DNA of 20,315 bases. It comes from a virus. A model generated the notes under the pieces. The model saw only the letters and a program-made list of their open reading frames with translations, did no database searches and had not been told where the DNA came from. Below, piece after piece: positions 3,683 to 20,315 of this stretch (the stretch's first letter is position 1; each line of letters opens with the position of its first letter). The DNA lies in the IMG/VR virus record IMGVR_UViG_3300031586_000027, positions 1-20,315 of that record; one strand, given 5' to 3'. Position numbers and translations under genes: made by a program.

Positions 3683-4522
3683 CTATGAACCTAAAATATG
3701 AGGCCCATCTAATTCGCTTATATCTAATCTAAAGAGTGTTAAAAGCTCATAGACTCGTTGAATCTCTAATCCCCATGTGCAAACTGGTATTCCAATAGGG
3801 TCGCCTGTAATTGTAATAGAATTTATAAAACAGTCGGCGCTTAGGCCGAGATTAGCGCAGAGAACTGTTATTATATCAGTTATTTCCCTCGTAATTATCT
3901 GTGTTCTCAAAACATCAGTAGTACCTTTTATTACACAAGATATTCTTGCTATTGGGTCTTTATATTTTGTTATATAATTACCAACCAGCGCTTGCATTTC
4001 CTCTTCTTCGGTGCCTTCTGTCCATGTTAAATTCATTACCCTTCTGCCATATTTGGCTATGGAGGTTGCATCGGTAGCCCTGACTGATAAAGTACTGGAC
4101 ACTGGCTCTTCATGTGTAACTTCTGTCCCTGTTTGGTATTTGACTTTAACCTCAAAATATATTTTCATGGTTTTGCTGCCCGTATTCGTTATCTCAACAA
4201 CCTTAGTTCTATCATCACTGGTGCTTTTCAGCTTGATATTATAGGCATAATAGGACTTACCATCCAGGTCTTTTGCATGATGATTGCCTAATTTCCAACT
4301 TAGAGGATTTGACAAAGTAGTGGTAATATGCCTTATGTGAAGGAAAGGTGGGCTGACTTCCATTCTGCGTGCATAGGTTTTCCAGCTATAAGTAGGGTCT
4401 ACATCTACCACAGTCTCGGATTCAATGATGCCGATCTCGCTGCGGACATCATTGTATATTTCTCTATCATCCAATTCGTAGCGGATTTCTGCCATTGTAT
4501 CATCTACAGTAAAATCAGACAT
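3683..4522 (-). CDS. Tail-tip/baseplate protein, C-terminal part of a split protein (279 aa)
   Basis: The protein starts MSDFTVDDTMAEIRYELDDR and includes EIYNDV. Its C-terminal half contains YGRRVMNLTW followed by a helical stretch and VGNYITKYKDPIARISCVIK, which I recognise as the later part of a phage tail protein family whose N-terminal part is encoded at 5137-5682. Residues about 90-160 look like an inserted beta-sandwich (KLKSTSDDRTKVVEITNTGS). The ATG at 4522 lies 8 bases inside the upstream gene, in the +1 frame. Taken together with the two preceding genes, this is best explained as one ancestral tail-tip protein now made in three pieces. It likely sits at the distal tail. Confidence 0.6.
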   Translation of the reverse strand: MSDFTVDDTMAEIRYELDDREIYNDVRSEIGIIESETVVDVDPTYSWKTYARRMEVSPPFLHIRHITTTLSNPLSWKLGNHHAKDLDGKSYYAYNIKLKSTSDDRTKVVEITNTGSKTMKIYFEVKVKYQTGTEVTHEEPVSSTLSVRATDATSIAKYGRRVMNLTWTEGTEEEEMQALVGNYITKYKDPIARISCVIKGTTDVLRTQIITREITDIITVLCANLGLSADCFINSITITGDPIGIPVCTWGLEIQRVYELLTLFRLDISELDGPHILGS

Positions 4523-5135
4523 TCCTGTGATACCTCGATTCGTAGACCCAGATTCCCGATTTACTTATATAGTTTCTACCACCATAAACAAATTCCAGAT
4601 TCCTGATTGCTTCTAGTGAAACCTTGTCACCAATTATAGATTTATCAACACTGCCACTACCAGAATCACCCCATTCTTCAAAATGGAATTGAGTGTTAGC
4701 AAAGGAAGTCCAAGTCACACCAGAATCATTGCTCCTAGCATAGTGTTCACCTGCTGATGGACTACCCCACCACAGAAGTGCACTTGCAACGCCGGTTGGG
4801 GCTCTAACCACGATAGCATATAGCGTATAACCACTCAATTGATAAGGAGACATATTGATTTCCCGCAATTCAGTGGCGGGGGATATTGGCAGCGTATTGC
4901 CATCAGTCGTTCCACTTGATAAATCAGACCCAATGGGTTTTCCCAAAGCATGAAGCCTAATACTTACTGTAATAGTATTGGGATTACCCATGAGTTCAGA
5001 CAATCTCAATTTAACAGAAGATAGAATATGTTTATTATAATTATAAAATATTGTTGCATACCAAGTTGCCCCATTAAAAGCCACTGCTCCCCCTGGAGGG
5101 TCTGGGTCAAAATAAGTATAGCGTTGACTGCACAT
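4515..5135 (-). CDS. Tail-tip protein with choice-of-anchor R-like beta-sandwich (206 aa)
   Basis: Residues about 35-155 resemble the choice-of-anchor R type domain: ILSSVKLRLSELMGNPNTIT early, GKPIGSDLSSGTTDGNTLPI in the middle, YTLYAIVVRAP, then SNDSGVTWT and FHFEEWG at the end. This is a jelly-roll fold that may bind sugar. The C-terminus, IRNLEFVYGGRNYISKSGIW to YESRYHRNV, does not belong to that domain. It reads like the middle of the tail-tip family encoded by the flanking genes. ATG 5135 follows GGAG seven bases upstream, one base after the preceding stop. The gene may thus be an adhesion domain inserted into, and splitting, a tail protein. Confidence 0.6.
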   Translation of the reverse strand: MCSQRYTYFDPDPPGGAVAFNGATWYATIFYNYNKHILSSVKLRLSELMGNPNTITVSIRLHALGKPIGSDLSSGTTDGNTLPISPATELREINMSPYQLSGYTLYAIVVRAPTGVASALLWWGSPSAGEHYARSNDSGVTWTSFANTQFHFEEWGDSGSGSVDKSIIGDKVSLEAIRNLEFVYGGRNYISKSGIWVYESRYHRNV

Positions 5136-8144: not shown

Positions 8145-9155
8145 TTAAGTTGGGTCGCCCACTCTTATTGCTGAATAGAACAGAGTCGTAGCTGCAGCGG
8201 GGTGAACACTGGGTAAGAAGCTAACATAACCATCTGGGTCATTGAATAACGCAGGCAAGAGTGGCCCCACTATTGTCTTTTGCTCTGCCCCTACTGTCGG
8301 AGCCAATGCCTCAAATCGCCCAAATCTATCCCTGTAATCTACAAAAGCTAGGGTTGTAGCAGTTGCATCATGGCGGAGTTTAGCTCCCGCCATTCCAGGT
8401 TCTACTGGATAAGCTGTGCCATCTATAACAACGGTGTCAATATAAGCTGACCTTGCTGGTGCAGCTTCCCAGAGTTCGATTCTAATCCTATCAAGCACAT
8501 AGGCAGTTGCAACTTCCCCTGATTCTGCTGTATCCCATGCAGCATTCACCAATGTCAATAAATCTGCTAATGTCTGACCTCCACCCCACTCAAAGACTGA
8601 AGTTCCATCGGGAGTATGTCCTCCAAAACCAAACGGGTCTGCTGCTGCCAATGTTTCCTTAACCCATGCAGCTCCCCCATTATGGCCTTGCAATGGGTAA
8701 CAGGTTACTTCCAGCCATCCATGGTCTGTCCCCAATGATACGAGGGAAGAATGGACGAAACGGAACTCTATCTGTGCAAAGTTGGCAACTACAGCCGAAG
8801 AATAATGATAGAAGCTCCATTCTGGTGCTACATCATCAATAGCTTCTGCAAGGTCGTTGAGTGTTATGGTTGTCGTTGGAGTGAATTGCAAGTGAGTTGA
8901 AACATCACCACCCGCACCCGTTTTATCAAGTAATACTGAATATTCTCCCGTCGCTCCCTGGTGTTGTGCAACTGACCAGGTTGCTGTATCCTGCAAGGGG
9001 GCTATCTCACTTCTCGCAATCAGAATGACATGCCCGTTATTGGCAAATCTCAGTCCCTGCGTATGAGTCGTATCATCCCATACAACCTCCCTTGATTCGG
9101 AATCGAATACACCCGCCTTTACTGCATCTGTTACTGGTATAATTTGATATGACAT
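8145..9155 (-). CDS. Unknown virion protein between tail terminator and tail tube (336 aa)
   Basis: The protein begins with a segment (RFANNGHVILIARSEIAPLQ) like small decoration or tail-accessory beta-sandwich proteins. It continues with a strand-rich domain (HLQFTPTTTITLNDLAEAID, then FYHYSSAVVANFAQIEFRF), an aromatic and glycine-rich middle, and a C-terminal segment with FNDPDGYVSFLPSVH. There is no signal peptide or membrane segment. ATG 9155 has ATAGGAGGTAAC upstream, so it is probably highly expressed. Its place between tail terminator and tube genes, usually adjacent, suggests a tail-associated decoration or tail-proximal fibre. Function unknown. Confidence 0.65.
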   Translation of the reverse strand: MSYQIIPVTDAVKAGVFDSESREVVWDDTTHTQGLRFANNGHVILIARSEIAPLQDTATWSVAQHQGATGEYSVLLDKTGAGGDVSTHLQFTPTTTITLNDLAEAIDDVAPEWSFYHYSSAVVANFAQIEFRFVHSSLVSLGTDHGWLEVTCYPLQGHNGGAAWVKETLAAADPFGFGGHTPDGTSVFEWGGGQTLADLLTLVNAAWDTAESGEVATAYVLDRIRIELWEAAPARSAYIDTVVIDGTAYPVEPGMAGAKLRHDATATTLAFVDYRDRFGRFEALAPTVGAEQKTIVGPLLPALFNDPDGYVSFLPSVHPAAATTLFYSAIRVGDPT

Positions 9156-9977: not shown

Positions 9978-10300
9978 CGACTTATCCTCAGCCAACACTG
10001 TTTATGGTGACTTGCCAAACTATCAGCGTAATCCTGCACCAATAGTACCTCATAGACATTACCATCTATAGTTATCCTATCCCTTTCTGTGATAGTGATG
10101 TCTCCAAGGAATAGCTTATAATCGGCTACGACAATCTCAGCACCTACTTTAATTTCCCTACCTGCAGAAGCTACGAGACGGCAATCTTCATCAGTATACC
10201 TGTCATGCCATGCCAAGGCAGGATTGCCATAATCATCAGGAAGACCTTCGGTAAAATATTCTATCTTGCAAGTTTGAATTAACAGGGATGTATAGCTCAT
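9974..10300 (-). CDS. Head-closure/head-tail joining protein (HCP1-like)
   Basis: The 108-residue protein starts SYTSLLIQTCKIEYFTEG, followed by DDYGNPALAWHDRYTDEDCR, VGAEIVVADYKLFLGDITIT, and ends in IDGNVYEVLLVQDYADS. This is the common pattern of phage stopper proteins (small beta-barrels that plug the connector): a loop with DxxG near a W, then the R-I-x-x-x-G-x-x-Y-E-V-L finish. It overlaps both neighbours as ATGA, in the typical order connector, closure, gp10-like, terminator. Confidence 0.7.
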   Translation of the reverse strand: MSYTSLLIQTCKIEYFTEGLPDDYGNPALAWHDRYTDEDCRLVASAGREIKVGAEIVVADYKLFLGDITITERDRITIDGNVYEVLLVQDYADSLASHHKQCWLRISR

Positions 10301-10653
10301 TCTATATCCTCATCAATGGTAGTATCTTCTACCCCGGATAAGTCCATAGATGCGTATGTAAGATAGGGTGTTGATTCAACCTTCGCCCTTAATTCGTCCC
10401 TTAATTTATTCATCTTATCAATTATCTTTTGAGTGTAAGCATAGTCGCCTATCTTTTCACTATCAGGACTGGTGGCATATTTAGCCATCCAAGCCTCTAG
10501 TGCATCGGCAGCCGCTAAACTAATATTGTTGGCATTCTCAGTCAGGAAATAATTTATTTCCGCATCTTCGAATACATAATCTGTGGCATCCGTATCGCCT
10601 ATTATCAGGCGAACCTTACCTACATTTGTGGTAATATCATAAGGTAAACTCAT
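10297..10653 (-). CDS. gp6-like head-tail connector/adaptor
   Basis: The protein begins MSLPYDITTNVGKVRLIIGD and includes VFEDAEINYFLTENANNISL and AAADALEAWMAKYA, a helical pattern common to small adaptor proteins that dock onto the portal. ATG 10653 is preferred over the ATG at 10665 because GGAGG precedes it by five bases and lies downstream of the earlier ATG. This start gives 118 residues and an ATGA overlap with the preceding long gene. Position at the head of the neck gene group supports the assignment. Confidence 0.75.
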   Translation of the reverse strand: MSLPYDITTNVGKVRLIIGDTDATDYVFEDAEINYFLTENANNISLAAADALEAWMAKYATSPDSEKIGDYAYTQKIIDKMNKLRDELRAKVESTPYLTYASMDLSGVEDTTIDEDIE

Positions 10654-12743
10654 AAGAGCCTCCATATTCTTCTACATAATCGAGATATAGGCAACTGGAC
10701 TATAGCTAAACGAGTAGCCTTTATCCCAACACTGATACATTCGGAAATACGCCTTGTTAATGTCCCTACTGGTGTGATGATTCCCCCGCCAACAGCTTGA
10801 TAAAAAATACCTATCAGAAGTGTCGCTAATGTCCCAATTGGCGTAATGGCTCCACTTCCCACAGCTAGGAGCACTTTTCTACCAAGAGTACCTACTGGTG
10901 TTATTATGCCTTGACCCACATTAAAGGCTAGGATTTTCCTTCCCAAAGCACCAACTGGGGTGATTGCACCAGCTCCAATACTGATAAGGGTTTTTAATCC
11001 CAATACTCCGATAGGTGTTACGATTCCATTGCCTACACTAAATGCTTTAATTGCTCGCCCCAGAGTGCCGACAGGAGTTATAATACCAGCACCCATTGCT
11101 AGGATTATCTTCCGAGCTAAAGTACCAATGGGGGTTATAGCACCAGCCCCCACAGCTAAAAATATCTTTCTACTAAGAGTACCTACAGGGATTATAGCAC
11201 CCTCGCCTACTACCAAAAGTAACTTAGCAGCTAAAGTACCAACGGGAGTTATGACACCAGAACCTATAGCCAGGAGTATTTTCAAACCAAGAGTGCCGAC
11301 AGGAGTTATGACCCCACTTCCCACAGCCTTAGCTATCTTCAGGCTTAATGTGCCTATGGGAGTAATCGCTCCGTCCCCAGTACCTTGAAGGAATCTAAGA
11401 ATTGCTCCCAAAGTTCCAGTCGGTGTAATTGCTCCATCTCCAATATCAACACCGAGGAATATCTTTAGATTCAAATTACCTATTGGTGTTAAGGCACCTT
11501 CACCCACGGCTTGTTCTGTTGGTCCCCCTGCTGTATATTCAATATGGAGTTTGGCTGCCTCAGCTGAAGCCTCTTCATAAGCAGAAATGTCATAACGGTT
11601 CGAATTCGCTGCTGTCCCGTCATCATCATGGAGGATTACTAAAGCGTTATTTGCTGACCAACCACCCCGTCCTACTATTTCCTCAATGACCGTAGAAATA
11701 TCTGGCGAGTTATGCCAAGTGTTAATTAGCCACAACCCTGTTATTTCCCAAGCCACCGATGCTGTAGTGCGTGCTCGGCTGTTCATGCCAGAACAAGTTT
11801 CACCATTAAAATTACTGGCATCGTCTTCGTCTTCCCCATTAACATGAGTAGGAACGGTATAATTTCTACCAGAGTATGCCCAGTAAGTTAGGTAACAATT
11901 GCTACAAGTCGCCCCTTGCGGAACATTTACGGTCTGGAACCGCAAACCAATATTACGATAATCAGGGCTAGCTACATTTCCAATATATAAAAAGTCTAGC
12001 CCGCTGTGAATCCAAGAGCATGCAGAACGATTATTGGCATCATCATCCCCGTCACCAACTTGTTCATCAACCTCTGTAGCATCTAAAATGGGATAAACTA
12101 TGGGCTGGGCTATTTCCCCTAGCTCAGTAAGAACCTCTAGCTTTAACTTCTCATTCCTGCCACCAACAACGAGCTTTTCTTCCATCTTGATAGGTTGCTT
12201 ATTAGCATCCCTAGCAGGTTTGAGTGGTAAAAGTTTAGCTACCCCCTTGATTTCCTGAATATCTACATCGAAATCAAGAGGTGCTTTGTCTGACTTAATC
12301 AGCCTTTGTAATTTAACTCTAGTATTCTGAACCTCAAGGATAACATCGGTATCAGGATAGATATTCTCCCAGATAACACGATTACCTTCTACCTTTGGGA
12401 TAGGAATAGTCGGGGGTAAATCCGTCCCGCCTATTCGTCCTATCTCACCTAGCTTAACCCCTTTTCTGGCAGCCTTTAGTCTGACATCAAACTCACCAGA
12501 CTCCTTAGACTTATAGTGGAAGCCAGGCATACCAGTGAGGTAAATATCAAGGTCGTAAGGTGCTTTGGTTACTCTCCCATTGACTATAGTGGTATCAATA
12601 TCTTTCCACTGCTCGGACTCATCTCGTGGATTGTCCTTGTAGTGGACAGAGCCAATAGTGCCGTCCCAAGCATATTTACGCCCACCCAGAGAATGGGTCT
12701 TGCTGTTTCTAGTTCGCCTCTCTATCAGTTCAATTGGAGGCAT
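10650..12743 (-). CDS. 697-aa virion protein with DNRLRE-like domain and 13 tandem repeats
   Basis: Residues 1-215 hold GRKYAWDGTIGSVHYKDNPR and ESEQWKDIDTTIVNGRVTKA, a segment seen at the start of other phage surface proteins. Residues about 222-404 form a DNRLRE/CBM-like beta-sandwich: FLYIGNVASPDYRNIGLRFQ, NCYLTYWAYSGRNY, then SVAWEITG and VIEEIVGRGGWS to KLHIEYT. Residues 413-665 are thirteen repeats of about 19 residues, each with a core like VGSGVITPVGTLGLK. A basic C-terminus follows, with no signal peptide. Probably a long surface or fibre protein; the repeat number may change by recombination. It is transcribed immediately before the connector gene. Confidence 0.7.
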   Translation of the reverse strand: MPPIELIERRTRNSKTHSLGGRKYAWDGTIGSVHYKDNPRDESEQWKDIDTTIVNGRVTKAPYDLDIYLTGMPGFHYKSKESGEFDVRLKAARKGVKLGEIGRIGGTDLPPTIPIPKVEGNRVIWENIYPDTDVILEVQNTRVKLQRLIKSDKAPLDFDVDIQEIKGVAKLLPLKPARDANKQPIKMEEKLVVGGRNEKLKLEVLTELGEIAQPIVYPILDATEVDEQVGDGDDDANNRSACSWIHSGLDFLYIGNVASPDYRNIGLRFQTVNVPQGATCSNCYLTYWAYSGRNYTVPTHVNGEDEDDASNFNGETCSGMNSRARTTASVAWEITGLWLINTWHNSPDISTVIEEIVGRGGWSANNALVILHDDDGTAANSNRYDISAYEEASAEAAKLHIEYTAGGPTEQAVGEGALTPIGNLNLKIFLGVDIGDGAITPTGTLGAILRFLQGTGDGAITPIGTLSLKIAKAVGSGVITPVGTLGLKILLAIGSGVITPVGTLAAKLLLVVGEGAIIPVGTLSRKIFLAVGAGAITPIGTLARKIILAMGAGIITPVGTLGRAIKAFSVGNGIVTPIGVLGLKTLISIGAGAITPVGALGRKILAFNVGQGIITPVGTLGRKVLLAVGSGAITPIGTLATLLIGIFYQAVGGGIITPVGTLTRRISECISVGIKATRLAIVQLPISRLCRRIWRLL
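10749..11507 (-). repeat. Tandem repeat array of about 57 bp, 13 units
   Basis: Within the long virion gene, thirteen units encode (V/I)G-x-G-x-I-T-P-(V/I)-G-T-L followed by a short basic/hydrophobic tail. Most units are 57 bp; others are 60, 63 or 69 bp, always multiples of three, so the frame is kept. Units are diverged at the DNA level, which implies an old array with some room for copy-number change. A plus-strand frame at 10960-11388 is only the antisense image of these repeats. Confidence 0.85.
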
Positions 12744-12754
12744 ATTTATTCCCC

Positions 12755-13366
12755 TTAGCTTCCAGCAGTAAAGTCTACCTCAAAGGTGTACTCTATCTGA
12801 TTCCCAGGGACAACGTTGATAGCACCATGCTTTGTCCTATCCATGAGCGTCCCCGCAGCATTAACATTGAAAAGCCCATGCTCAGTGATAGCCTCGGTGT
12901 CGTCCATCGTTAGGGTCTCTACCGACTTATAGGTGTCATGGTCTGTCTCAACCTGAGTGCCGTCTCCCCTTGCAATACCGCTAGGAGCGCCCAGAGCAGT
13001 ATCAGTTATATTCTCTGCACCAACACCCAGTCCACACTCGTGCCATTTGAAGTCGCCGAATAACGCTGATTCCGTTATAAGTTGGTCAACTATAAAGTCA
13101 ACAAAAGCTGTAGTTACTACCCGATGTCTCCGCTCCCGCCTACCTTTCTCATTTTCCCTCCAAAGCTTAGGACATTTCTCATGGTCATTAGCCATCAGCC
13201 ATTGACGGTATTCCTCATTTATCTCTTCTGAAGGAATGATTAGCCCGCCTGGAGTTACTGGTTGGAAAAGTTTGCACCTGAGTCGGGTATCCATCTTTAC
13301 CAGTCCAACTCCCAATTTAGCCCCTATATCCCATTTGAAGTTGCTTAATATGTCCTTAATGTTCAT
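12755..13366 (-). CDS. Virion accessory protein (203 aa)
   Basis: The protein starts NIKDILSNFKWDIGAKLGVG and includes RHRVVTTAFVDFIVDQL, then FKWHECGLGVGAENITDTAL and ETLTMDDTEAITEHGLFN. The middle part, with WHECGLGVG-A-N-x-x-D-T-A-L, recurs in a family of phage structural proteins often next to fibre genes. It has no signal peptide or membrane segment. ATG 13366 follows AGGAGG with a seven-base spacer. It belongs to the accessory island between capsid and connector; it is probably part of the virion surface. Function beyond that is unknown. Confidence 0.6.
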   Translation of the reverse strand: MNIKDILSNFKWDIGAKLGVGLVKMDTRLRCKLFQPVTPGGLIIPSEEINEEYRQWLMANDHEKCPKLWRENEKGRRERRHRVVTTAFVDFIVDQLITESALFGDFKWHECGLGVGAENITDTALGAPSGIARGDGTQVETDHDTYKSVETLTMDDTEAITEHGLFNVNAAGTLMDRTKHGAINVVPGNQIEYTFEVDFTAGS

Positions 13367-13393
13367 TATTTGCCTCCTAGTTTTTTAGTCTCC

Positions 13394-13909
13394 TTATGTT
13401 GACCACGGCCAAGTAGTTAGTAAGGGTATTGGATTAGTTATCTCTATATGTCTTATCACAACCACGCTAACTTCTAATTCATCAGTATTTCCAGAAGCTG
13501 ACTTTATTCTGCCCCACAGCTTGGCATTAGCAGGGCAATTCTGGCTCCAAAAACCAAGTATCTCTGTTGCCTTTGCTATTGGAGTACCCAATATTAAACG
13601 CCTTTCACCCATAATCTGAGCCGTAGTGGGGTCTGACCCGCCAGCCGTACTATACCCTAATTGAATGAGATAGGTTGTCGCAGCATCAGCCGCTTCTATC
13701 ACCAGACCTACCACTTCATAACAGAAGTCAACAGTAGTTATTGGTATAATCTCTGCCCAGCTACCGAATGTATTGGCAACGCCAGCAGCAGCTAGGGTTT
13801 TTGTAGCCTGTACATCTTGAGGATAGACACGACTTCGTGAATGTTCGTGGTGTTCTTGAACCGCTACATTATAGAGTGTATCTACTATCTTTCCTTCTTT
13901 ATCAATCAT
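13394..13909 (-). CDS. Virion accessory beta-sandwich protein (171 aa)
   Basis: The sequence has RVYPQDVQATKTLAAAGVAN, FGSWAEIIPITTVDFCYEVV, TYLIQLGYSTAGG, IMGERRLILGTP and ANAKLWGRIKSASGNTDELE. The alternation of strands and the I-L-G-R-I-x-S-x-x-G motif are typical of small fibre or decoration domains found in phage surface proteins. The start ATG overlaps the upstream stop (ATGA), so expression is coupled to the LamG-like gene. Probably structural, perhaps fibre-associated. Confidence 0.55.
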   Translation of the reverse strand: MIDKEGKIVDTLYNVAVQEHHEHSRSRVYPQDVQATKTLAAAGVANTFGSWAEIIPITTVDFCYEVVGLVIEAADAATTYLIQLGYSTAGGSDPTTAQIMGERRLILGTPIAKATEILGFWSQNCPANAKLWGRIKSASGNTDELEVSVVVIRHIEITNPIPLLTTWPWST

Positions 13910-14625
13910 GACCTAAACCATTCCACTGTTTTTTCCCATACCTGTTGCCATTCGATTTCATTTATGTATCTCTCAAACCACGCTCTGGGTCGCCAGAGCA
14001 TACCATTGAAAAGATTAGAACCCGCAGCAGCATCACGCCCAATATGAAGGTTACGATTGCAACTATCTGCATCAACCAAACCACCAGCCGAACAGGTTGT
14101 AGTAATGATTCCGAAGCTGTCTATATCACCACGCCAGAATTGAACACCTGCCCCTGAACGGCTAACGCCCAAAAACCACCATTTGTTAAAAGCCCAGTTC
14201 CGAGAGTAGCAAGAGGTGCGTTCAAAACCCACACCTTGACTTGCGTGGTGGTGTCTTAAGGTCAGAATTTCGTTTGTATAGTGATATAACTCCCATCCAT
14301 CAACATTTACAAGGAAACGGCTCAGCAGGGTTTTATCATCAGCCCCCCCTGGTGTAAGCCAAAACCATCCACCAATACTATAGTCCTGACTGGTAAAATC
14401 CAAATTCCCAGTATCCGCTGCCGAAGCCCACAGATAATCATTCACCCCATTGAGAGTAAGAACTTGTAAGTATGAATCAAGCGTTGTCCATACACCTCCA
14501 ACGTCTACTATAGTTACAAGAGGCTTCGTCTTAGCCAAGCTGTGAGTGATAGTTCCAACACCCTCTCTGAACGGAAGGTCTAATGCCATATTTCTGTTTA
14601 TAGCTAAAGCATCGTAATGTATCAT
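13906..14625 (-). CDS. LamG-like (concanavalin A-like lectin fold) virion protein
   Basis: The 239-residue protein contains LQVLTLNGVNDYLWASAADT, SIGGWFWLTPGGADDKTLLS, GWELYHYTNEILTLRHHH, WWFLGVSRSGAGVQFWRG and LHIGRDAAAGSNLFNGML, the strand order of the LamG/pentraxin-like jelly roll. Such domains bind glycans. ATG 14625 is chosen because GAGGAGG lies four bases upstream and its codon overlaps the upstream TGA as ATGA; an earlier in-frame codon at 14652 has no support. No signal peptide. Likely a receptor-binding or surface decoration module placed on the virion. Confidence 0.65.
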   Translation of the reverse strand: MIHYDALAINRNMALDLPFREGVGTITHSLAKTKPLVTIVDVGGVWTTLDSYLQVLTLNGVNDYLWASAADTGNLDFTSQDYSIGGWFWLTPGGADDKTLLSRFLVNVDGWELYHYTNEILTLRHHHASQGVGFERTSCYSRNWAFNKWWFLGVSRSGAGVQFWRGDIDSFGIITTTCSAGGLVDADSCNRNLHIGRDAAAGSNLFNGMLWRPRAWFERYINEIEWQQVWEKTVEWFRS

Positions 14626-15086
14626 GGAGCCTCCTCGTAGAAAACTTCCCAATCATAGGCTCGGTTAGTTCCAGCCGTCTTTTCAATAGTAATTCCAAAG
14701 CCGTATCTGTTGGGTTTAAGGTCTACATTGATTAAGTCGGGGTCTTGAGCACCAGCAAAGGTCGTTGCACTTTGCAGGATTAGATTTAACCCCGGGCCAA
14801 TACGATAGCTGACTCTTATAACAACTGTTTCCGTAGCAGTATGATTAGTGAAGTCTATCTTGCAGCATCTAGGTTCGAATATTCCCGCTGGACTTTCTTC
14901 AGTGTAAAGAATCTGCTCGGCACCAGTGGTCGTGATTTGCCCTGCGACCTCGGTTAAAATAGCCTCAGAATCTGTTACTTCTCGGATAGCATTAGCGTCT
15001 TCTTCAATAAGGTCAACATCTGCTTGAAGAAGTGCAATAAGAATCAATAGAGATGCGTCATTATAGGGATTAAATACGCCACCCAT
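14622..15086 (-). CDS. Virion accessory protein (154 aa)
   Basis: The protein starts GGVFNPYNDASLLILIALLQ. It then has a helical, acidic stretch and a beta-rich C-terminal domain: FTNHTATETVVIRVSYRIGP, KPNRYGFGITIEKTAGTNRA and YDWEVFYEEAP. That last domain recurs in phage virion proteins. The start ATG 15086 overlaps the upstream TAA (TAATG), with AAGGAG 10 bases upstream. A GTG at 15095 is possible but its ribosome binding site would be too close. Probably a decoration or fibre component. Confidence 0.55.
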   Translation of the reverse strand: MGGVFNPYNDASLLILIALLQADVDLIEEDANAIREVTDSEAILTEVAGQITTTGAEQILYTEESPAGIFEPRCCKIDFTNHTATETVVIRVSYRIGPGLNLILQSATTFAGAQDPDLINVDLKPNRYGFGITIEKTAGTNRAYDWEVFYEEAP

Positions 15087-15388
15087 TATTGCCACTCTCC
15101 TTCGCTAATAGTAACGGAGCCATCTTCTCCAACGTCACAGATAGCAGCAATGTATCCCAGGAATAAGTCCTGAGTATCCATATTAAACGCACCGTTGGGT
15201 GTTAGCTTTATCCCATCACCCACTACGGCGGGGTTACCTCTTGCGAGATAAACAACGACATCTAAATCATTAATTATCTTTAAGTCGGCTCTATGGTCAT
15301 TTGCAGGCACTATGATGACACTTGCGTCTGTTACACCAGCGTGACCATCGTTTGCTCTTTCTATTGGAAATATTCTTGGGTCAGCCAT
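15086..15388 (-). CDS. Small beta-rich virion protein (100 aa)
   Basis: The protein starts ADPRIFPIERANDGHAGVTD and has DLDVVVYLARGNPAVVGDGI, then KLTPNGAFNM and a final ICDVGEDGSVTISEG. Its motif YL-x-x-G-x-x-AV-x-x-x-GI-x-L is also found in the gene at 16659-17099, so the two appear to be paralogues of a small decoration-type fold. ATG 15388 is preferred over an upstream TTG because AGGAGGG lies just before it. It lies between the secreted-protein gene and the small accessory genes. Confidence 0.6.
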   Translation of the reverse strand: MADPRIFPIERANDGHAGVTDASVIIVPANDHRADLKIINDLDVVVYLARGNPAVVGDGIKLTPNGAFNMDTQDLFLGYIAAICDVGEDGSVTISEGEWQ

Positions 15389-15402
15389 ATTCCCTCCTTT
15401 AC

Positions 15403-15975
15403 TTATGATAACCAAGCATTGATAACACTTAAAGCATCTGACATTGATATTTCACCTTGTAGCCATCTGTTGACCTCGCCTAGAGCATAGGACATATCAG
15501 GTTTAATCTTCACAGAGGTCTCTGGTATATCCTCACGAATTTGGACTCGACCGCCATATCCAGTAGTAGAACCAGCGTAGTAGAGAACGTAGCCTTCAAA
15601 GACAAACTCATCCATCGGCTCACCCTCTATGATAACTTCATAGACGGCTGTTACTTCCGTTCCCGCATCAAAGCTCTCAGCCCAGATGCACTCAACCATG
15701 CTTTGGCTTTCTGGATTGTCAAAGACTGTGCGGGCATAAGATGTCGAAGGTGAACACTCAACTATCTCAGCATCAACGACTTCCAAGTTGTCAGCAATGC
15801 CTATAGAGTTCGTCTCATCCTCTGGACAGGTAAAGGTTACTTCTACTGTAAACCACTCTCCCGACTCTACATATTCTGGATGACTTCTTTCTACATTACT
15901 TGACAGTGCACTAGCAGGAAAGACTAATAATATCACTAAGAGAAGTATCAACATTGTGTATACAAACTTTTTCAT
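15403..15975 (-). CDS. Secreted protein with signal peptide and beta-sandwich domain (190 aa)
   Basis: Residues 1-23 form a clear signal peptide: MKKF, then a hydrophobic core (MLILLLVILLVFP) and an ASA cleavage site. The mature part starts with SSNVERSHPEYVESGEWFTV, which is like bacterial and archaeal cell-surface Ig-like (DUF11/PKD-type) domains that carry a P-x-x-x-x-x-G-x-x-F-x-V-x-V-x-F start, followed by a strand-rich region. The C-terminus has MSYALGEVNRWLQGEISMSD, then SVINAWLS, like the helix ends of dockerin-like tails. ATG 15975 has AAGGAG. A secreted protein inside a virion gene island is unusual; it may be a lysogeny or infection factor rather than a virion part. Confidence 0.7.
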   Translation of the reverse strand: MKKFVYTMLILLLVILLVFPASALSSNVERSHPEYVESGEWFTVEVTFTCPEDETNSIGIADNLEVVDAEIVECSPSTSYARTVFDNPESQSMVECIWAESFDAGTEVTAVYEVIIEGEPMDEFVFEGYVLYYAGSTTGYGGRVQIREDIPETSVKIKPDMSYALGEVNRWLQGEISMSDALSVINAWLS

Positions 15976-15985
15976 TGTTTTCTCC

Positions 15986-16657
15986 TTATTGATTAGCTAC
16001 ATAGGTGAAAAGTAGGCCAAGATTATAGGTTGTCTGACCTAATGTATCATTAGCATGAGCAGCATCCCTATAAAGACAAAAGCCGAGGTAATCGCCAATC
16101 GCTAAATTAACTAGAGTGAGTGGATTTGGAGGTTCTTGTACATTTAGAAGACTATTACCTCCACTAGCGGTGACTCCGTAAGCTGGGGTATCTGTATGTA
16201 GGTTATAAGCCTCCCCTTGAGCAGCATACCAAGCAATAAGTTTCCAGTACATATTATTTACACCACCACCAAGACATGTCCATACTAATTTAACAGATGA
16301 AAAAGACACAAAATCATCAGGAACTTTCGTTGTAAAATAGCCTCTGTCTAGGACACTATCACTTAAATCCATTGTGGCGTATATTCCTAAAGCTCCACTT
16401 GATACCCCCTCACTAGGGAAACAAGCTGCAGGTATAAATAGTTCTCTAGTTACATCGGTATGCTGTGCTGCACCATGAGGGTCAGCAACACCACCAGGAG
16501 CAGCCCAAGCGGGGTCATTAGCACCCATTGTTAGGACCTCTCCCGCCGCACCCGCAGCAAGTCGTTCAGAGGCAGCTACACCACGCCTTAGAACATCACC
16601 TCGTGTGGTTAGTATTACATCAACATTGGGACTTGGATTATCTAATCCACCTTTCAT
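15986..16657 (-). CDS. Tail-fibre-like accessory protein (223 aa)
   Basis: The N-terminal segment TTRGDVLRRGVAASERLAAG, followed by GAAGEVLTMGANDPAWA, is a known repeat-type module of phage tail fibres. The remaining part is strand-rich (YWKLIAWYAAQGEAYN, LVNLAIGDYLGFCLYRD) and likely a globular head domain. There is no signal peptide. The ATG at 16657 lies one base after the upstream stop, with GGAGGG eight bases upstream. Its position just downstream of the capsid gene region suggests head-associated or surface fibres rather than a tail-tip fibre. Confidence 0.6.
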   Translation of the reverse strand: MKGGLDNPSPNVDVILTTRGDVLRRGVAASERLAAGAAGEVLTMGANDPAWAAPGGVADPHGAAQHTDVTRELFIPAACFPSEGVSSGALGIYATMDLSDSVLDRGYFTTKVPDDFVSFSSVKLVWTCLGGGVNNMYWKLIAWYAAQGEAYNLHTDTPAYGVTASGGNSLLNVQEPPNPLTLVNLAIGDYLGFCLYRDAAHANDTLGQTTYNLGLLFTYVANQ

Positions 16658-16658
16658 T

Positions 16659-17099
16659 TTATACTCCCTCCGTTACAAGAAGTGTCATTCCTCCAGAGGC
16701 ACAGATACCATTAAATGCTCCAACATTCATATTGCCAGACCTTCGACTTATCTCATAACTTCCACCAGCAGCATTCAAGCGTATACCCTGATTCATTACT
16801 GCCGCAACTCCAATTTTCAGATAGATAGGTTCAGTCCCATCATTGACAAATAAAGCATAAAGTCGATTGGCATTAGCAGCAAGAGCTACAGTTGTGGCAT
16901 TAGCAATTACTGGCTGGGTATGTGTTGGTGTAGTATAGACACCGGGGTCAGCACTAGCGGCAACAAGAGCCTGAAGTGCTATTAGTATCTCATCTGAATT
17001 AACATCCTCTACACCGATGCGATATGTGCCATCTGGATTGGCTGGTAGTCCGATGTTCGGTATTATCGCTCTAAGGATTTCCGTGTTTATAAGTGCCAT
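16659..17099 (-). CDS. Small decoration-like virion protein (146 aa)
   Basis: The first 60 residues are mostly helical (NTEILRAIIPNIGLPANPDG) and the C-terminal part is a beta-rich domain: ANRLYALFVNDGTEPIYLKI, NQGIRLNAAGGSYEISRRSG, and GICASGGMTLLVTEGV. This domain resembles the small protein at 15086-15388, with matching positions in YL-x-x-G, A-V, G-I-x-L and the closing glycine-rich strand. ATG 17099 has AGGAGG five bases upstream. Immediately downstream of the capsid gene, it is a candidate capsid decoration protein. Confidence 0.6.
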   Translation of the reverse strand: MALINTEILRAIIPNIGLPANPDGTYRIGVEDVNSDEILIALQALVAASADPGVYTTPTHTQPVIANATTVALAANANRLYALFVNDGTEPIYLKIGVAAVMNQGIRLNAAGGSYEISRRSGNMNVGAFNGICASGGMTLLVTEGV

Positions 17100-17131
17100 A
17101 TTGTCCTCCTATTCTAGCCAAGACGAGGGGT

Positions 17132-17186
17132 AAAGGAGCTAACCCCCCGTCCCGACTAGCAAGTTCCTAGTTTAGAAAGCTCCTTT
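17132..17186 (-). other. Long inverted repeat after the capsid gene
   Basis: A 9-base arm AAAGGAGCT (17132-17140) pairs perfectly with AGCTCCTTT (17178-17186), separated by 37 bases. Inside, ACTAG and CTAGT form a second 5-base stem. The outer arm starts at the capsid gene's stop codon. No T-tract follows, so it is not a standard terminator. It may stabilise the capsid mRNA or limit readthrough into the accessory genes. Confidence 0.5.
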
Positions 17187-18352
17187 TAGCTGGATGTTGC
17201 TCCACCCATGTAAGTAGCACGCCAATCTTGAGTAATTCCACCAAAGACCAGGCGGACTCGATAAAGCACATTATCAGTAGCAAAGTCGCCGCTCATTGGG
17301 CCGATTGCTCCACCACCAACAGTTACCTTATCGCTTGCCTTCATGCAAATCTCTGGTCGTTCATGTCCGCTCATGTGAGCAACTTCAAGAGCCGCTATAT
17401 CCTTCGGGTCGGCAAACAGATACCAGGCAGTGTTAGCAGAAAGCGGGTAGGTCGGCTCATTGATAAGGCTACATATAGGTAGATATGGATCAACTACTAA
17501 AGTTAAACCATATTGCGGGAGAACGTTGGTCGTCGGCCAAGCTGTCCCACCAGCTCCACCTGTATATATCTTGTTGGCCGAAGTCAGGATTTGGCGAGCT
17601 GTCATCTCAAGGGCTGGGGGTACTACCAGGAATTTAGCCCTGTTCTGAATTGGCTCACCATTAGCATCCAAAAATCCTGCCATAGCCTCAAGCCCCTGCT
17701 CCAAGAAGCCGATAGTTAGTGCACCTGCCGTCTTGTTTATCTCACCAGCAAAAGTAGAGTACAGAGGTCCACCAAAGGTATGAGCAGCAGTACCCGCCCC
17801 ACCAGTCTGGTCGTAAGCATACAAGCAAGTGGTAACACGATGCTCAGTTCTTACTGCAGCTCTAGCAAAGCGTTCTGGTGTATCCTTGAGAGCACCTAAA
17901 TCATCGTTGATTAGTGCTTCCCAAGAGATGTCAAACTGTTTACCATACTTGTCCACATTCAGTGTATATCTGTCCTCACTCCTCTCACTTGCCAGGTATT
18001 CGCCCTTCTCAGCTACTTTAGCAAGCAACTGGTCTCCGCCGGTAATAGCATACCTATAGGCATCCTTGAAATCCTTTACAGTAGACATCTTGACAAATGC
18101 CTTCCATACCGGGTCAACAGCCTTATAGGATGCTAAGACCTGTCTATCCAGGACATCCCCAAACAGTTTTGGGAAGTCTGAAGTTGTCAGTGCTTCCTTT
18201 ATCAGGTATTCGTGTTTATGAGACGGAAGGTTATTAGCGTTTGAGAGCAGGTCAACAGTCTCCTTTAGTTTCTGCTCATAGCCTTCGCCCCTATCTATTT
18301 CGTTAAGAGCGACATACCCCTTCCAGTCCTCCATTAGTTTCATCATTTCCAT
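17186..18352 (-). CDS. Major capsid protein, Mu gpT-like HK97 fold
   Basis: The 388-residue protein has KYGKQFDISWEALINDDLGA (the E-loop-to-spine region typical of Mu gpT-like capsid proteins), PERFARAAVRTEHRVTTCLY, then a P-domain with AKFLVVPPALEMTARQILTS and a C-terminal domain with AWYLFADPKDIAALEVAHMS. It has the length of the family. The N-terminal part (residues about 1-60) is helical and may act as a delta-like scaffold, but no cleavage site is certain. ATG 18352 has AGGAGG 11 bases upstream. It forms the capsid shell, with the preceding protease/scaffold and the neighbouring decoration protein. Confidence 0.85.
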   Translation of the reverse strand: MEMMKLMEDWKGYVALNEIDRGEGYEQKLKETVDLLSNANNLPSHKHEYLIKEALTTSDFPKLFGDVLDRQVLASYKAVDPVWKAFVKMSTVKDFKDAYRYAITGGDQLLAKVAEKGEYLASERSEDRYTLNVDKYGKQFDISWEALINDDLGALKDTPERFARAAVRTEHRVTTCLYAYDQTGGAGTAAHTFGGPLYSTFAGEINKTAGALTIGFLEQGLEAMAGFLDANGEPIQNRAKFLVVPPALEMTARQILTSANKIYTGGAGGTAWPTTNVLPQYGLTLVVDPYLPICSLINEPTYPLSANTAWYLFADPKDIAALEVAHMSGHERPEICMKASDKVTVGGGAIGPMSGDFATDNVLYRVRLVFGGITQDWRATYMGGATSS

Positions 18353-18378: not shown

Positions 18379-18645
18379 CTATTCTTTTGCCGCTTCTACA
18401 CCCTTCTTAATATCATCTAGAGTAACAGCACCTTCTTTTACGGCAAGATAGGTATTGAAGTTACGCTGTGATTGGTCAATCCCCAACAATCGAGCCTCAC
18501 GTTCCGCCACAAGTTTGTCTATCTCCGCAATTCGCTTTTGATACAACTCTACTTGATGGCTCAGTTGATAATACTCATCTACTAATTGAGCAATCTCAGT
18601 TGAGGCTTTTTGTTTTCGTTTTTCTTCTTCAGCATAAAAATCCAT
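18379..18645 (-). CDS. Small coiled-coil protein (88 aa) before the capsid gene
   Basis: The protein starts MDFYAEEEKRKQKASTEI and then has a heptad-like helical segment LVDEYYQLSHQVELYQKRIA and AEIDKLVAEREARLLGID, so it is mainly coiled coil. The start ATG 18645 is preferred over a longer in-frame start at 18771, which would overlap the decoration gene; AAGGAG lies seven bases upstream. It sits between the decoration protein and the capsid gene. It may be an assembly accessory or minor capsid protein. Family not recognised. Confidence 0.6.
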   Translation of the reverse strand: MDFYAEEEKRKQKASTEIAQLVDEYYQLSHQVELYQKRIAEIDKLVAEREARLLGIDQSQRNFNTYLAVKEGAVTLDDIKKGVEAAKE

Positions 18646-18667
18646 TAATTCTCCTTTTTTACTTAGT

Positions 18668-19657
18668 TTATGACTGTGCTTCCGAAACCATGATGTACCT
18701 AACGTTGCCATTGATGATACATCGTAGAGCGAAAGCAGGCGTGTCCGTGTTGGCTGCATATTGAACAGCACTTAGATTTACAAACTCGAATACGTTATCG
18801 GCAGTAGCATAGCCAGTCGCATCACCGTCCATCACGAATCGGTGAATTGAATGAACTGTCGCAGCTCCAAAGTCTGTTGCGTCTCCCTCGGCCCATAGTT
18901 CAGACATACCGCCTGCGATAGTGCCCATTAAAGCTCTGTCTGGCCCCATTAAAGTTCCCCTACATCCTACACCCAACCCGGTTACTGTGCCATCGGTGTC
19001 ATATTCAAGTCCGAAATGCCCACCGTGGGCAGTTAACACTCCGACAGCTTCTGCTATTGTCCTTCCCCTAAGAGCCTCACCTGAGCTACCCACACCATTC
19101 AGGCCTAGGGCCATGTATTGGCCACGCACATCACCGCTGGTAGCAGTTGAACGATAGCGATATTCACGAGCATTAGCTAGTGTTCCTATTGCTTCGAAAA
19201 CAGTACCATCTCCAACCTGCTCATATTCATCATCAGGGTCAAAGTGAACCTTGACCGGGATAACATCGGTTACTCCTTCAGCAATGGCATACAACGCATA
19301 ACCAAACCTCTGTGAAACGCTCTTGTCATAGTTCTTGCTTAGGATACAAGTGGTAAGATTGATGAATATTTCATCACCAACTGCTACTGCGCTGTTACCA
19401 TTCTGGTCAGTTGCTACAACTGATAGCTGCCAGATACCCTCAGTATCAATAGCAACCAAATCAGTAGCCGCAGCTGCACTTTTGAAAGCCACACCAACAA
19501 TGTTCTCACCGACTACTACGGGGTCACCCTTGTCGACTAAACTATCAGTGTGTGAAGGGTGAGTAATCTGGCTTTCAGTGAAGGTCAGATGCCTACCTTC
19601 ATAGGTGCTGGAAACCTCATCTCCAGCGGTTCCTGCTGTGTATACTCCATAAGGCAT
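18668..19657 (-). CDS. DUF2190-like decoration protein with C-terminal extension (329 aa)
   Basis: Residues about 38-118 match the DUF2190 pattern: DKGDPVVVGENIVGVAFKS, DTEGIWQLSVVATDQNGNS and AVGDEIFINLT, a small beta-tulip-like fold of capsid decoration proteins. The rest (about 130-329) is a further domain with REYRYRSTATSGDVRGQYMA, EYDTDGTVTGLGVGCRGTLM and IAGGMSELWAEGDA. Typical DUF2190 members are about 110 residues, so this one is roughly three times as long. ATG 19657 has AGGAGGT upstream, and two matching stem-loops precede it. Confidence 0.75.
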   Translation of the reverse strand: MPYGVYTAGTAGDEVSSTYEGRHLTFTESQITHPSHTDSLVDKGDPVVVGENIVGVAFKSAAAATDLVAIDTEGIWQLSVVATDQNGNSAVAVGDEIFINLTTCILSKNYDKSVSQRFGYALYAIAEGVTDVIPVKVHFDPDDEYEQVGDGTVFEAIGTLANAREYRYRSTATSGDVRGQYMALGLNGVGSSGEALRGRTIAEAVGVLTAHGGHFGLEYDTDGTVTGLGVGCRGTLMGPDRALMGTIAGGMSELWAEGDATDFGAATVHSIHRFVMDGDATGYATADNVFEFVNLSAVQYAANTDTPAFALRCIINGNVRYIMVSEAQS

Positions 19658-19744: not shown

Positions 19745-20315
19745 CTACCGTCCGGCGACGGCGGTTTCAGCCTGTTCATCAGTCATACCTAGTCGCTTGA
19801 AGGACTCTTTAAGAGCTTCATGGTCTTTGGCTGGGTCTGATTTTGATTCACCCATGCCCTTAACTGTGCCTGCCTCAGACAGTTTGGCGATATAATCTAC
19901 CTCAGACTTTATCGCTTCCTCTATTCCTTCAGCAGACTCGGAATCCTTGAACCTCTCAATAAGACGTTCCTTAGCAGCCGGTGGTAGCTCAGCCTTATCT
20001 ACAGCCTCTTTAATAGTGGCTTGTGCTTCAGCCTTTGCTTTTTCCTTTATTGCCTCAGTTATCTTGGTTTTGAGGTCGTCTCGCTCTGTGGTCAGCGTTG
20101 TTATCTGACCTTCGAGTTCTGTAACTCTCTCTTCTAGTTCCATTTTGTGTTTTACCTCCTTGTGTACTTCTTCCCTGACACTGGTCTCTATTGATTTAAC
20201 CAAATCAGGGCGTCTCTCCTTTAGGGCTGATAGTTCGACCAAATCCACGTCTCGGTTTCTATCAGATTCATAAAATGTAACGCTGCCGCCGGCCCCAGGT
20301 TCAGTCACAAAGTCA
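19745..20315 (-). CDS. Prohead protease-scaffold protein, C-terminal part (partial)
   Basis: The frame is open to the right window edge; codons for DFV precede TEPGAGGSVTFYESDR, giving the DFVTEPGAGG end motif of prohead protease domains. After it come LVELSALKERRPDLVKSI, common in such fusions, and a long charged coiled coil (EVKHKMELEERVTELEGQIT, then ERDDLKTKITEAIKEKAK), the scaffold. It ends with FKRLGMTDEQAETAVAGR. The protein would serve as both protease and inner scaffold, cleaved during maturation. A GTG at 20308 is inside the motif and is not the start. The catalytic domain lies outside the window. Confidence 0.75.
   Translation of the reverse strand, partial: DFVTEPGAGGSVTFYESDRNRDVDLVELSALKERRPDLVKSIETSVREEVHKEVKHKMELEERVTELEGQITTLTTERDDLKTKITEAIKEKAKAEAQATIKEAVDKAELPPAAKERLIERFKDSESAEGIEEAIKSEVDYIAKLSEAGTVKGMGESKSDPAKDHEALKESFKRLGMTDEQAETAVAGR

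Follow-up and report, generated by a model that had tools for sequence, protein, structure and literature searches.

This work concerns a run of nine genes, here called the island, between the major capsid protein gene and the head-tail adaptor gene of a virus. The window, i.e. the whole stretch of DNA analysed, is a 20,315-base virus record (IMG/VR IMGVR_UViG_3300031586_000027), the minus strand of which carries every structural gene recognised. As a sequence-only reading had stated, nine minus-strand open reading frames (ORFs i1 to i9, 109-697 aa) occupy positions 10650-17099 (6.5 kb) between these two genes. Neighbouring island ORFs are spaced by -31 to +27 nt, the first ORF begins 86 nt past the capsid stop codon, and the last, i9, overlaps the adaptor ORF by 16 nt. 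Judging by this spacing, the island ORFs would be cotranscribed; a promoter and terminator scan of the window returned sites no more numerous than in shuffled sequences. In transcriptional order, the locus contains the following features.

17186-18352, minus strand: major capsid protein, HK97-type, the upstream island boundary (phrog_133 and phrog_4523, E 1e-48)
17114-17159, minus strand: hairpin with an 18-bp stem and the loop TAGCTCCTTT, in the 86-nt gap past the capsid stop codon
16659-17099, minus strand: i1, 146 aa, C-terminal part in the i4 family
15986-16657, minus strand: i2, 223 aa, weakly fibre-like (phrog_23837, virion structural protein, E 8e-5)
15403-15975, minus strand: i3, 190 aa, N-terminus resembling a signal peptide by eye
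15086-15415, minus strand: i4, 109 aa, small accessory domain recurring in islands (18-row family alignment)
14622-15095, minus strand: i5, 157 aa, N-terminal helix and β domain (34-row alignment; AlphaFold2 predicted local distance difference test (pLDDT) score 84)
13906-14652, minus strand: i6, 248 aa, concanavalin A-like lectin fold (LamG), predicted from Laminin_G_3 matches in its family
13394-13909, minus strand: i7, 171 aa, recurs after i6 (comparison with relatives)
12755-13366, minus strand: i8, 203 aa, no relatives in the sets searched
10650-12743, minus strand: i9, 697 aa, N-terminal region (residues ~1-410), 19-residue repeats (~13 units) and a short basic tail
10297-10665, minus strand: head-tail adaptor ('connector'), the downstream island boundary (phrog_1732, E 2e-14)

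The PHROG family matched by the adaptor (phrog_1732) carries no named function. The same family also comes after the capsid gene, in the same order, in Methanoculleus virus L4768/Blf4, where ORF16 has been named a head-tail adaptor (PMC8540584), and we therefore assign this function to the 10297-10665 gene. Blf4 is the nearest cultured relative of the capsid protein (41% identity) and displays the same capsid-adaptor-closure-neck order as the window. Its capsid-adaptor gap, however, measures 163 bp and holds a 46-aa ORF, so no such block is present there. The sequence-only description of the two genes as usually close neighbours holds for Blf4 (163 bp) and for the locus L003 (70 bp).

A synteny comparison with related contigs, which that reading had proposed, shows that the island is an exchangeable cassette. 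Searching IMG/VR with the capsid protein gave 47 related loci, for 16 of which the records were retrieved, and the comparison used the 24 loci with both the capsid and adaptor anchors, of which a few are near-copies. The capsid-adaptor gap ranges from 70 bp in L003, which has no island altogether, to 7,689 bp in L043. The genes i4-i5-i6-i7 recur in a fixed order, including in contigs with other backbones, and a search with the i5 family returned 38 loci, many of which have the capsid-island-adaptor order. A tree of 32 capsid proteins requires at least 10 gains or losses of i5 and at least seven shifts in island size class; it is a quick tree in which two long branches meet, so its details are unsure. 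The cassette nature of the island follows from the pair G010 and G011, whose capsid proteins are 98% identical and flank wholly different islands: the DNA matches end 98 bp past the capsid stop codon and resume at the adaptor start (96%), with none between. At the protein level, a clear alignment of these two islands is confined to their repeat proteins (23-25%). The two loci diverge in addition in the decoration gene that precedes the capsid gene (46% over part of its length).

The i5-i6 module was also observed in three contigs (L104:9899-11600, L099:6928-8225 and L109:9758-12258) in which the capsid profile found no capsid gene, accompanied by i7 in L104 and L109. L104 does have a capsid gene, one from a different family (phrog_283), and the module follows it at a distance of a few genes. 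In L099 the module is flanked by a terminase fragment on one side and the portal gene on the other.

Among the recurring genes, i6 is probably lectin-like, a label supported via its relatives: the Laminin_G_3 profile matches 8 of the 11 i6 family members at E ≤ 0.01 (best E 1.3e-13), the window i6 itself giving no match. The best Protein Data Bank (PDB) matches of the i5 model are carbohydrate-binding modules, but these matches are weak, with a chitosan-binding module at E 4e-3 and a template modelling (TM) score of ~0.34. Profile searches of the PDB with the i4, i5 and i6 families gave nothing convincing, and searches of a phage collection with i6 and i9 (tblastn) returned no match at E 1e-5. 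In the L039 locus, the last island gene before the adaptor (L039:4426-6366) encodes a subtilase-family protein with a prodomain (Peptidase_S8, E 1e-45). Two other labels of the sequence-only reading fare less well than the lectin: 'decoration-like', for i1 and i4, is something we infer only, and 'secreted', for i3, was read by eye. The small size and apparently β-rich character of i1, i4 and the ~100-aa first island gene of many relatives, together with the position of the block after the capsid gene, would fit a purely shell-stabilising role as capsid cement or decoration, with no binding to hosts. The lectin fold of i6, the long repeat proteins, the subtilase, the domains shared with the site after the tape measure gene (described below) and the lack of the whole block in L003 argue against this alternative, which we regard as quite improbable.

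The last island gene is long or repeat-bearing in the window (i9) and in L008, L020, L022, L035, L043, L009/L007, L079 and L085. In the window and several relatives it is composed of an exchangeable N-terminal region and a repeat stalk, and most such proteins end in a basic C-terminal tail. The repeats of L079 and L085 were read by eye; the periods measured in the others are 18-20 residues (28 in L009/L007), and the strongest lag in L022, 40, is twice 20. The i9 protein search against viral contigs returned no relative, and L079 and L034 surfaced only via other queries. The N-terminal region of i9 is common to L079 (28% over 486 columns), while the repeats of the two differ; conversely, L079 and L022 by eye have the repeat type GLTxSATIDR in common and differ in their N-terminal regions. 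The repeat stalk supports the earlier fibre-like label for i9, which also has a weak PHROG match to 'virion structural protein'. The basic tail consists of Arg-hydrophobic pairs in a 5-residue phase. A score of at least three pairs was found in 10 of the 41 genes located at most two places before the adaptor, some of the 10 being copies of one another, versus 3 of 814 other genes of at least 150 aa, two of which are island i6 genes.

Parts of the islands are shared with genes downstream of the tape measure gene. The island pair of L035 (112 and 478 aa) matches a post-tape-measure pair of G014 (56% and 51%), an L022 island protein matches the product of the window gene at 4515-5135 (39%), an L043 island protein matches a post-tape-measure protein of G011 (47%), and i2 matches the C-terminal part of a post-tape-measure protein of G002 (30%). 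These shared parts suggest that gripping proteins may sit both at the tail tip and close to the head. The same relationships would be expected if the island products were tail or baseplate side fibres merely encoded upstream of the adaptor, and the G014 repeat protein does end in a segment that matches a tail-protein family, with a Prophage_tail gene following it. The L035 repeat protein, however, has the N-terminal region of the G014 protein and ends in the basic tail, and the window has post-tape-measure genes of its own, 4515-5135 among them; we consider tail fibres an unlikely explanation. On this one comparison of L035 with G014, the C-terminal end may decide where a fibre is mounted.

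The gene content of the islands varies widely, and i3, which was found by eye to start like a secreted protein, may be a secreted, non-virion protein. By eye, its C-terminal end also has a dockerin-like motif. Both features of the block would suit moron genes that act in or on the infected cell, for example by blocking superinfection, and are not virion parts. The matches of i2 and i9 to PHROG families annotated as virion structural proteins, the architecture of lectin and repeat stalk, and the domains shared with tail-region genes make this the least probable of the alternatives, and a very unlikely one.

The hairpin past the capsid gene is itself a recurrent feature. In the window, AAAGGAGCT just upstream of it could pair with the loop, and the fold has a z score of -3.0 relative to dinucleotide shuffles; an Rfam search of the window gave no match at E ≤ 1. 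The motif CTCCTT is present within 150 nt after the stop codon in 28 of 48 capsid loci, in 21 of these with stems of at least 10 bp, against a background of two CTCCTT hairpins after 1146 other genes, and AAGGAG lies between the capsid stop codon and the loop in 11 of the 28. Because the arms fell out of register with the loop in MAFFT alignments, the loop served as the anchor for comparing them. The stem is variable, with pair types that differ at every position, and the CUCCUU loop is conserved; the two arms from one locus pair over 13.2 bp on average, and swapped arms over 6.6 bp. In G010 and G011 the hairpin is located in the conserved part. In L188 the hairpin was seen past a distant capsid relative, and in L139 and L177 close to a capsid-like gene; a scan of viral contigs for the loop pattern found stems of at least 9 bp in 13 of 79, among the matches listed. 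The CUCCUU loop is similar to the anti-Shine-Dalgarno sequence at the end of 16S rRNA. Our guess is that the hairpin sets the expression of the island relative to that of the capsid gene.

Considering (i) the predicted lectin fold of the i6 family, (ii) the repeat stalks, (iii) the sharing of domains between two sites, (iv) the subtilase and (v) the exchange of entire blocks, we infer that the island products are virion-surface adhesion proteins, which lends support to the adhesion part of the sequence-only reading. The head-mounted part of that reading stays conditional: the position beside the capsid gene, the basic tail of island repeat proteins and published head-filament precedents make mounting on the head or neck plausible. 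In the explanation we favour, to which we assign a probability of roughly 0.6, the interval from the capsid gene to the head-tail adaptor gene would be an exchange site for accessory virion-surface genes. There, the hairpin after the capsid gene would be followed by a variable run that encodes a lectin and small β-rich proteins, in many cases together with a long protein in which a repeat stalk links an exchangeable N-terminal region to a basic C-terminal tail. The products would be displayed on the virion, where they would attach to glycans of the host or the environment at first contact; the long protein would be held at the capsid or neck by its basic C-terminal end and project outwards from there. 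A more specific proposal, in which the 5-residue-phased basic tail is a head or neck docking signal, and receptor-binding regions and stalks form one pool that serves both the tail tip and another mount close to the capsid, with the C-terminal end choosing the site, is tentative and in our view rather doubtful.

Several observations weigh against the explanation we favour. The island products are known here from genes alone. The N-terminal region and stalk of i9 were not reliably modelled (pLDDT 36). The tail of the window i9 scores only two pairs, which, as with the L009/L007 tail scores, is not clearly above shuffles, and the contrast in basic tails between L035 and G014 draws on a single post-tape-measure repeat protein. 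The weak fold matches of i5 include many unrelated proteins. The possible non-virion nature of i3 is a further such point, as is the lack of relatives of i3 and i8 in the sets searched, with no tblastn match of i3 in the phage collection.

Known attachment devices provide a frame for the favoured explanation. The phiCbK protein gp76 has been proposed to form a head filament on account of its lectin domain, its repeats and its position near the head genes, and was not detected in phiCbK virions (PMC3556154). The island is similar in all three traits, but phiCbK has one conserved 2,799-aa protein where the island comprises several genes that are exchanged as a block, its small lectin being encoded separately. 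Hoc of T4, pb10 of T5, gp12 of SPP1 and gp8.5 of phi29 are capsid proteins that aid attachment, often via carbohydrates (PMC7602432). The proposed role of the island, an attachment aid on the virion surface, is the same, and like a head fibre or Hoc-type decoration protein it is not needed by every relative, as the spread of capsid-adaptor gaps across the 24 loci (70-7689 bp) shows; the island, in contrast, comprises several genes in an exchangeable block and has no sequence link that we found to these proteins. In phage 7-7-1, capsid fibres, the proteins of which are unknown, contact flagella (PMC12796354). Given the head-filament and capsid attachment-protein precedents, the island may thus operate in the manner of devices already known, but as an exchangeable set of several genes, a form that we did not find described in the literature searched, most subscription journals being outside its scope.

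The genes around the island are those of a tailed virus head and tail. Upstream of the capsid gene, two features were recognised.

19745-20308, minus strand: C-terminal part of a scaffold/protease-like protein, first in the reading direction
18668-19657, minus strand: gene with a head-decoration match in its N-terminal part (phrog_122)

The product of the latter is composed of the decoration-type N-terminal part and a C-terminal part of ~190 residues, and several relatives have a second, shorter copy immediately ahead of this gene. An ORF called from GTG at 18379-18771 overlaps the decoration gene by 104 nt, and an internal start is likely. The adaptor is followed by head closure, neck and tail terminator genes, a gene of unknown function (8145-9155) and the major tail protein gene, and then by more tail genes and a 459-aa tape measure. 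In G014, integrase-like and repressor-like ORFs (L057:15026-15973 and 16559-17185, minus strand), identified by eye, would suggest that some members are temperate. A diversity-generating retroelement was considered and set aside, there being no reverse transcriptase (RVT_1) match in 17 related records other than the window record, all of which may be fragments. An attempt to assign the host from tRNAs gave three distinct sites, none decisive, and a scan of cellular genome contigs for the host found only a distant capsid relative.

If the favoured explanation is correct, there is a group of uncultured tailed viruses that maintain, next to the capsid gene, a place where surface genes are swapped and which has parts in common with the tail-tip site, and their host range and first contact with the host might be set from two places on the particle. 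Readers of such genomes should then search this location for adhesion genes too, in addition to the region past the tape measure gene.
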